64,000 nucleotides of DNA. Origin: Desulforhabdus amnigena. GTDB taxonomy: Bacteria > Desulfobacterota > Syntrophobacteria > Syntrophobacterales > Syntrophobacteraceae. Below, piece after piece: positions 27,534 to 31,806 of the stretch (position 1 is the first letter of the stretch; every line of letters begins with the position of its first letter). Below the pieces are notes generated by a model that searched no databases, was not told where the DNA came from, and worked only from the letters and a program-made list of their open reading frames with translations. The stretch lies in the NCBI RefSeq assembly GCF_027925305.1, contig NZ_BSDR01000001.1, forward strand, positions 2,073,001 through 2,137,000, given 5' to 3'. The position numbers and the translations under genes are program-made.

Positions 27534-28784
27534 CTATTGCAGTATAAACTGGAATACCTTGTCTATCCTGATCAATTCCTTCCGAATTTTCTCACACTGC
27601 TTTCCGGTGACCTTCCCATCCACTTTCAGACTGACCAACTGAGACAGATTTTCAAAGGTGGCATCGAATGCGCCCTTGATGTTGAGATCGTCGTTCATAT
27701 TTCTCTCAAAATCGGGGATAAGCCGATCAATCAATGCTTCGACTGAACTATCAGTTTTTCGGGCACGGCTCCCACCGGAATCGCCGCTTGAGAGCTTTTC
27801 CACGAGACCATTCAAAAGAACGAGTTTCTGAGTCGTTTTCTCGAAGATCTTTTTGGTCAGATTCAACGGTTCCCTATGATGGCCGTACAGGAGGTAAAAA
27901 CGGATACTGCGCGCACTGTATCCCTCTTTCATAAGATCCTGGGGGTAGATGATATTTCCCACACTCTTGGACATTTTTTTCCCATCGACCAGAAGATGTT
28001 CACCATGGATCCAGTAACGTGAAAATTCCTCCCCCGAAACGGCTTCGATCACTGCAATGTTATAGTCGTGATGCCTGTATAGATTATCGATTCCTCCGCA
28101 GCTGATATCCACGGTATATCCCAAAGTCTCGGTGATCATGGCCGGATCCTGAATGTTCCAGGAAGGTCTTCCCTTTCCTATCCCTGTATCCCAGTATACT
28201 TTATCTCCAGGCTTATAGCCGTGCCAAAGGATGAAGTCTCCAAGATTCCAGCGCCTGCCAGGATAAGTGTCTTTCTTGAAACGTTTCTTTTCCTTGGGCC
28301 AGCGGCTCATATCCAATCGAAAGAGCTTACCGAAGCCATTGAATTTGAGAGGATCGAAGAAGACATCTTTGCCATACCAATAAGCATACCCTTTTCCCAA
28401 AAGGATTTGAATGAGTTTCACCGCCTGATCCACCGAAGTAGAAGAGCGGGGAATATGATTCGGCAGTTCGATCCGCAAATCCCTTGCATCGGCAAAAAAC
28501 TGCTCAGCGTTCGCGGCCGTCAGATCCTCGATGGTCATCCTTGTCTTCTCGGCCTCGGCGATGGCTTTGTCCTCCACATCCGTAAAATTGAGCACTCTCT
28601 CGACCCGGTAACCCAGGAAACCCAAATATCTCTGCAGCACATCCTCCCACAAAAAGCTGCGATAGTTTCCGACATGAGGTCTCCCGTAAATGGAGGGACC
28701 GCATGTAAACATCTTCACCACTCGGTCATTTCGAGGTTCAAAAACCTCTTTCTTCCGGGCCATGGTGTTGTAAAGTTTCAGCAT
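27534..28784 (-). CDS. Divergent cysteinyl-tRNA synthetase-like class I ligase
   Basis: 416 residues, shorter than bacterial CysRS (about 460), the loss being in the C-terminal anticodon-binding part. The class I motifs survive: PHVGN (HIGH) near residue 38 and KMSKS near 270. Of the four zinc ligands of E. coli CysRS (Cys28, Cys209, His234, Glu238) only Cys28 and His238 (equivalent of His234) remain; Cys209 is Asp213 and Glu238 is Asn242. The family's DIHGGG becomes DISCGG. The zinc reads the cysteine thiol in CysRS, so this protein may not be a cysteine enzyme, unless Asp213 can act as a ligand. The frame is intact. It may be a paralog with another aminoacylating or ligase role, as MshC is in actinobacteria. 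Followed by a hairpin terminator. Confidence 0.88.
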   Translation of the reverse strand: MLKLYNTMARKKEVFEPRNDRVVKMFTCGPSIYGRPHVGNYRSFLWEDVLQRYLGFLGYRVERVLNFTDVEDKAIAEAEKTRMTIEDLTAANAEQFFADARDLRIELPNHIPRSSTSVDQAVKLIQILLGKGYAYWYGKDVFFDPLKFNGFGKLFRLDMSRWPKEKKRFKKDTYPGRRWNLGDFILWHGYKPGDKVYWDTGIGKGRPSWNIQDPAMITETLGYTVDISCGGIDNLYRHHDYNIAVIEAVSGEEFSRYWIHGEHLLVDGKKMSKSVGNIIYPQDLMKEGYSARSIRFYLLYGHHREPLNLTKKIFEKTTQKLVLLNGLVEKLSSGDSGGSRARKTDSSVEALIDRLIPDFERNMNDDLNIKGAFDATFENLSQLVSLKVDGKVTGKQCEKIRKELIRIDKVFQFILQ

Positions 28785-31269: not shown

Positions 31270-31800
31270 CTACGTCAAGGAAACAGAACTCGCCTGTGGT
31301 CCCTTTTCGCCAAGCTGTTCGATAAAGCTCACTACCGTTCCGATCTCAAGATCCTTGAATCGACCACTAATCAAGGCATTCTCGTGGAAATAGATTTCTC
31401 TCCCTTCGGGAGTCAAAAGAAATCCGTACCCCTCGTCAGGAAACAACTTGCTGATCCGAGCAACCGGCTTCTCTTCATGAAACTTCACTTCTCCACGCTG
31501 CTTGCCGGCATGATCTTTGAGACGACGCTGAGCCACATCAAACGAGTTTGAAATGGCAGAATAGAGATCTTCATCGGGTTCTCTCTTTACGACGATCTCG
31601 CCCCCAGGAATCGTGATATCAATGCGCACATTGTATTGCATACCGCTCCTCTGGCTGCGGTGCGGTATGTCTACCATGATTCGACATCCAATGATCTGAT
31701 CAAAAATATTGTCGAGTTTCGAAGCCTTATCGCGGATAAGTTCTTCCATTTCCTCTGAGAGATGAACATTTTTGGAGCTGATTTCCAATGGAAGTTTCAT
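31270..31800 (-). CDS. hpf: Ribosome hibernation factor (HPF/RaiA) fused to cold-shock-like domain
   Basis: 176 residues from the ATG at 31800, which is 9 bp behind AGGGG; a GTG at 31806 is possible but too close to that site. Residues about 1-105 are an HPF/RaiA fold (LEISSKNVHLSEEMEELIRDKASKLDNIF, PDEDLYSAISNSFDVAQRRL), which binds the 30S decoding centre in stationary phase. Residues about 112-176 form an S1/cold-shock-like OB fold (ISKLFPDEGYGFLLTPEGREIYFHENAL, with the FHEN RNA-binding patch). In the usual long HPF the C-terminal domain is a different dimerisation fold, so this layout marks a distinct subfamily. Single gene between repeat-filled and AT-rich gaps. Confidence 0.9.
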   Translation of the reverse strand: MKLPLEISSKNVHLSEEMEELIRDKASKLDNIFDQIIGCRIMVDIPHRSQRSGMQYNVRIDITIPGGEIVVKREPDEDLYSAISNSFDVAQRRLKDHAGKQRGEVKFHEEKPVARISKLFPDEGYGFLLTPEGREIYFHENALISGRFKDLEIGTVVSFIEQLGEKGPQASSVSLT

Positions 31801-31806
31801 GGGCAC

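Follow-up and report, generated by a model that had tools for sequence, protein, structure and literature searches.

Free-standing aaRS paralogs have repeatedly given rise to new biology, for instance in mycothiol synthesis, tRNA modification and altered decoding. The genome of Desulforhabdus amnigena raises the question of whether a further case is at hand: within the stretch of 64,000 nucleotides that we analysed (positions 2,073,001 to 2,137,000 of contig NZ_BSDR01000001.1; referred to as the window in the following), an open reading frame on the minus strand (27534-28784) starts with ATG and encodes a CysRS-like protein of 416 residues. We refer to the clade or family of this protein as C2. 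Judging from its family scores, annotation would easily call it a cysteine--tRNA ligase, while a sequence-only reading had proposed that it activates an amino acid other than cysteine, charges a non-tRNA acceptor, or is free of zinc. As its ATP machinery is kept, its pocket consistently rebuilt and its anticodon-reading domain absent, we consider it probable that the acceptor of its amino acid is not the usual cysteine tRNA.

The relationship to CysRS is clear. In Pfam, the CysRS catalytic domain is recognized with 255.1 bits, and NCBIfam TIGR00435 (cysS) with 299.4 bits, which is below its equivalog cut-off of 340; TIGR03447 (MshC) scores 165.2 bits against a cut-off of 485.1. The AF2 model has a pLDDT of 92.6, with a mean of 63 in residues 171-180; in VIA-align, its four top CysRS matches reach Z-scores of 47.0-48.1, and those to MshC are 41.1-42.0. 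The HIGH-like and KMSKS motifs were correctly described as intact and, on a class I fold, place the protein in the class I aaRS catalytic superfamily. The anticodon-binding end, previously noted as shortened, is in fact missing: the profile alignment stops at residue 394 of the 461 in E. coli CysRS and the structural alignment at residue 396, so the anticodon-binding domain (ABD) is absent. The features of the protein are collected in Table 1.

Table 1. Features of the C2 gene and its product, with positions in the window.
Feature	Position	Strand	Basis
C2 CysRS-like paralog, 416 aa, standalone gene	27534..28784	-	ORF, profile matches, clade support 100/100
C28, retained ligand position	28701..28703	-	58/58 orthologs
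HVGN (HIGH-like) motif, residues 37-40	28665..28676	-	H37, G39 and N40 in 58/58
Family-specific CP stretch, residues 160-190, with basic loop 160-171	28215..28307	-	D172, Y174, W179 and G182 in 58/58; K/R enrichment
NIQDP, residues 210-214, in place of canonical HIECS; D213 corresponds to E. coli C209	28143..28157	-	N210, Q212, D213 and P214 in 58/58
Residues 226-245 (DISCGGIDNLYRHHDYNIAV) with C229, D233, R237, H238 and N242	28050..28109	-	Ortholog alignment
KMSKS motif, residues 270-274	27963..27977	-	M271, S272, K273 and S274 in 58/58; K270 in 48/58
C-terminal helical bundle, residues 311-416, up to the protein end; ABD absent	27537..27854	-	Model and structural alignment

The most distinctive part of the protein is the region that corresponds to the zinc site of CysRS. 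The zinc ligands of the E. coli enzyme, which we take to be C28, C209, H234 and E238, align in the solved structure (PDB 1li5) with C28, D213, H238 and N242, and the DIHGGG stretch of E. coli CysRS with DISCGG. The residue assignments of the sequence-only reading thus hold, and they extend beyond this one protein. A scan of genome contigs yielded 63 loci, in which the C2 group stands out with >44% identity from canonical CysRSs with 32-40%. After removal of truncated or duplicate entries (L045, L055, L070, L071), 58 distinct C2 rows above this identity remained for counting, and 38 other CysRSs, i.e. 37 canonical rows and the Methanoperedens protein L195, served for comparison. Two of the four housekeeping-type zinc ligands are present in all 58 orthologs, and all 58 (405-430 aa) lack the ABD. 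C28, N210, Q212, D213, C229, R237, H238, D240 and Y241 are each found in 58/58, as are M271, S272, K273 and S274; N242 is found in 50/58, with Glu in none at that position.

Comparison of the two sets argues against erosion. Six positions are near-invariant in both and yet differ (canonical to C2: Y to F26, T to S31, Y to F151, H to N210, E to Q212 and C to D213; 58 against 38 rows). C229, R237, D240, Y241, R63, E47 and W179 are invariant in C2 and mostly other residues elsewhere; conversely, H228 is invariant in the 38 other CysRSs and variable in C2. Thirty-two positions, among them H37, G39, W209, D233, M271, K273 and S274, are near-invariant in both. The invariant new Cys229, the swaps to N210 and Q212, and the basic loop 160-171 had not been mentioned before. 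With its residues uniform in 58/58 and the ATP motifs and D233 unchanged, the pocket is switched, not decayed.

Does this switch mean that the metal is gone? Such a reading from two missing ligands is undercut by full-length Thermoplasmata CysRSs (L214-L243), of which 15/30 carry Asp at the C209 position and keep Glu at the E238 position, a fraction biased by the fact that these 30 proteins were drawn by similarity to one Asp-bearing protein. Cys at column 229 also occurs in three spirochaete CysRSs that possess all four canonical ligands. Since Asp is thus found at the C209 position elsewhere and an invariant Cys229 lies beside the site, the argument for zinc loss is weakened: a metal site of C28, D213 and H238 with C229 nearby appears plausible, Cys229 is a possible replacement ligand, and a rebuilt site seems at least as likely as none. 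The E238 position tells a different part of the story. It is Glu in 37/37 canonical rows other than L195 and in 30/30 of the rows L214-L243 (L231 being a fragment), but Glu is gone in 6/10 other proteins without an ABD, namely L195 and 5/9 of the short Thermoplasmata CysRSs L244-L252 (L249 being partial). With the 58/58 C2 members that also lack it, loss of Glu238 accompanies loss of the ABD in the sampled CysRS proteins.

C2 is not the housekeeping CysRS. The D. amnigena genome (one contig, 4.54 Mb) encodes three proteins that match the CysRS family strongly, namely a canonical CysRS at C1:125801-126694 (PF01406, 469.9 bits), the C2 protein (253.7 bits in the same search) and a fusion of cysteine synthase (CysK) with a CysRS-like domain (184.8 bits); four further matches are much weaker. 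The second, canonical cysS that the sequence-only reading had suggested looking for therefore exists, and its proviso that C2 might be the only CysRS of the genome falls away. A canonical CysRS is likewise present in 16 of 20 C2-bearing genomes (L175-L190). In two methanogens, C2 is the only PF01406 match, and SepRS is present (749 and 751 bits), which, according to PMC7373986, provides Cys-tRNA by an indirect route. In the remaining two, both MAGs (G423, G436), the search turned up, apart from C2, no more than a long frame of the CysK-fusion type. The conclusion draws on the canonical enzyme in the protein's own genome and on the SepRS of the two methanogens lacking any other CysRS.

The family spans two domains of life with its invariant switched pocket. 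By record names, it occurs in Syntrophobacteraceae, Desulfobacteraceae, Desulfobulbaceae, Desulfonatronovibrionaceae, spirochaetes and Nitrospirota, and among archaea in Methanosarcinaceae, Methanoperedens, Bathyarchaeum and one Thermoplasmata MAG. Among 39 relatives of D. amnigena judged by an E-value criterion, it was found in 19/23 of the same family and in 0/16 outside it; a sample of 395 genomes of the phylum contained it in 12, D. amnigena included, at E <= 1e-120. In a tree of CysRS homologs, another check that had been proposed, C2 forms a single clade with support of 100/100 in both versions (26 and 19 members put in). It joins the archaeal-type CysRSs (95/95), with the ABD-less L195 as its nearest non-member (81/90, not starred). 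Patchy presence together with a single clade suggests that C2 spread by horizontal transfer. No relatives were found in viral contigs, and a phage origin was rejected on this ground; the 40 plasmid matches listed, of 624, all show <=35% identity.

As to the acceptor, the charge of the protein offers a clue. The core has a mean charge of +5.6 in C2 (sd 9.9, n=58) against -7.0 in the other CysRSs (sd 7.6, n=38), and in 15 same-genome pairs, the C2 core is the more basic one in 14, with one tie (mean difference +19.2, Wilcoxon p 0.001). Part of this gain is carried by the family-specific CP loop of residues 160-171. Given that the C-terminal tail of canonical CysRS is about neutral (-0.8), this is more than compensation for a basic domain that went missing. 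Several positions that are commonly basic in canonical CysRS have, in turn, lost this character in C2 (77, 91, 188, 282, 323 and 381), so that the protein has probably given up the canonical contacts with tRNA-Cys. A core far more basic than that of the canonical enzyme in the same genome suggests a polyanionic acceptor, perhaps RNA, the acceptor that one would expect first for a class I CP domain; lipids or nucleotides may also be considered. Net charge alone does not discriminate RNA from other polyanions. In some C2 members, the core is neutral or acidic (L048 -11, L035 -12, L017 -3, L056 -1), and canonical CysRSs bind tRNA despite an acidic core.

The reading that we favor, with a probability of roughly 0.45, is that C2 is an active class I aminoacyl-adenylate-forming enzyme, derived from an archaeal-type CysRS, that lost the ABD, rebuilt the pocket for amino acid and zinc, and took on a new acceptor. 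Such an enzyme would bind ATP and an α-amino acid, cysteine or cysteine-like, probably still at a metal, in a pocket rebuilt from C28, D213, C229 and H238 together with N210, Q212 and R237. It would form the aminoacyl-AMP and pass the aminoacyl group to an acceptor held by the new basic CP loop. This acceptor would be picked without an anticodon and is probably polyanionic, such as the acceptor arm of an RNA or some other molecule rich in phosphate. The kept ATP motifs, the switched pocket, the separate route to Cys-tRNA, the lost ABD and the basic core support this reading; the lack of a conserved neighbor, partner or operon counts against it, as does the failure to find a dedicated tRNA in the D. 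amnigena genome. Of the three alternatives offered before, another acceptor is the best supported. A change of substrate or acceptor remains the best reading, but a zinc-free or non-cysteine enzyme does not follow from the missing ligands, in view of the Asp-bearing CysRSs and Cys229. More tentatively, and with the odds clearly against it, C2 might represent an undescribed aminoacyl-transfer system of bacteria and archaea that is derived from CysRS, uses a re-cut and perhaps non-cysteine pocket, and serves an RNA or other polyanion whose anticodon, if any, is left unread. In the literature searched, no description of the C2 clade was found. D213, C229, R237 and the basic CP loop provide defined residues for probing substrate and acceptor.

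Genomic context gives few hints. Neighbor clustering revealed only local synteny, mainly in Syntrophobacteraceae, and the 20 adjacent genes scanned, of 235 listed neighbors, showed no recurring pathway, partner or operon. PADLOC did not match the C2 protein to any defense system, and a search for riboswitches and RNA elements near C2 in seven sources returned just one tRNA. With ARAGORN, the window and 49 related loci yielded ordinary tRNAs in small number, all of them close to just three loci. In the whole D. amnigena genome, RF00005 finds 46 tRNAs; those read by ARAGORN (the loci and six stretches) have ordinary anticodons, including one tRNA-Cys(gca). The idea of a dedicated tRNA partner was rejected, the genome containing only ordinary tRNAs and one tRNA-Sec. 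A tRNA-Trp (L132, G000:C1:240757-240833) also reaches 52.1 bits on the tRNA-Sec model (cut-off 47), probably as a cross-match.

Two known ABD-less relatives of CysRS suggest different acceptors. MshC, the mycothiol cysteine ligase, is tRNA-independent, lacks the ABD like C2 and resembles it in length and fold. A similar ligase, joining cysteine to a small-molecule amine (a sugar amine or the precursor of a novel low-molecular-weight thiol) without any RNA, would account for the shared architecture of a catalytic core and helical bundle, and for the missing dedicated tRNA. We regard this as possible but improbable: the profile scores place C2 closer to CysRS than to MshC, a core and a CP loop of such strong basicity do not fit a small neutral acceptor, neither a glycosyltransferase nor a deacetylase is among the 20 adjacent genes scanned, and the C2 hosts are not actinobacteria. 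CysRS* is reported from Desulfobacterales in the reviews PMC7609411 and PMC9437257 as a second genomic CysRS with an altered CP domain and no ABD, characterized by its linkage to selB* and selC*. By analogy, the basic and family-specific CP loop of C2 might hold a tRNA that receives cysteine with its anticodon unread, which would give the cell an additional way to insert Cys. This is unlikely, because none of the examined C2 loci contains a selB-like gene, and the D. amnigena genome has one selB above the cut-off and one tRNA-Sec, with no selC*-like tRNA found. In addition, C2 extends to archaea and spirochaetes, a much wider range than that described for CysRS*, and its zinc site is switched. 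In 86 genomes of the order to which the C2 carrier G420 belongs, four more short CysRSs were retrieved among the matches listed; each of them is C2 and none lies beside selB, but a CysRS* may have escaped this listing. A sub-branch of C2 could still correspond to CysRS*.

Two other explanations are less likely still. The two altered ligand positions recall a zinc-sparing CysRS that would charge tRNA-Cys as a back-up under zinc limitation, and Zur-linked CysRS paralogs are indeed described for proteobacteria in PMC2770081; according to the same paper, however, these paralogs keep the zinc residues. C2 lacks the ABD, occurs in the two methanogens with SepRS and no other CysRS, and is not accompanied by a gene for zinc uptake or of Zur type in the 20 adjacent genes scanned, which makes this role very improbable. 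Least credible is a non-catalytic regulator or sensor of CysRS descent: the CysK-fused CysRS-like domain of the same genome has lost its ATP motifs, but in C2, HxGN and M271/S272/K273/S274 are conserved in 58/58 members. In summary of these comparisons, C2 shares with canonical CysRS (TIGR00435, PF01406) the fold, the ATP motifs, D233, C28 and H238, and differs from it in the switched zinc-site residues, the absent ABD, the basic CP loop and the sub-threshold profile score; it is like an aaRS-derived ligase, yet it matches the full definition of none of the families tested.

Several other unusual CysRS homologs came to light. L195 (L213:6567-7805, from the Methanoperedens MAG G434) is a 412-residue ABD-less CysRS with C28, C213 and H238 and a Val at the E238 position, which scores 399.4 on TIGR00435; it adjoins an ABC transporter, and its context points to no pathway. 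The short ABD-less copies L244-L252 were found in 9/60 Thermoplasmata genomes, among translation genes and likewise with no pathway apparent. They form a clade separate from C2 (100/99, 7 of 9 put in), and unlike C2, all of these and L195 have Cys at position 213. In-frame TAGs are reported for some Thermoplasmata copies; those of L246 and L250 lie beyond the conserved protein end, and we do not claim recoding. The CysK fusion of D. amnigena (G000:C1:1899215-1901557; L003:547-2889) has degraded KMSKS and HIGH motifs, and the zinc ligands are kept in 4/5 such fusions examined; a speculative role would be that of a pseudo-synthetase sensing cysteine in order to regulate CysK. Similarly long frames of ~760 residues are common in the 86 genomes mentioned above. 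A different architecture is seen in L176 (G429, a Thermodesulfovibrio MAG), an 834-residue CysRS with an N-terminal extension of ~350 residues and the CysRS part starting at about residue 352. Finally, the window itself encodes, at 31270-31806 on the minus strand, an S30AE ribosome-hibernation domain joined to a cold-shock domain.
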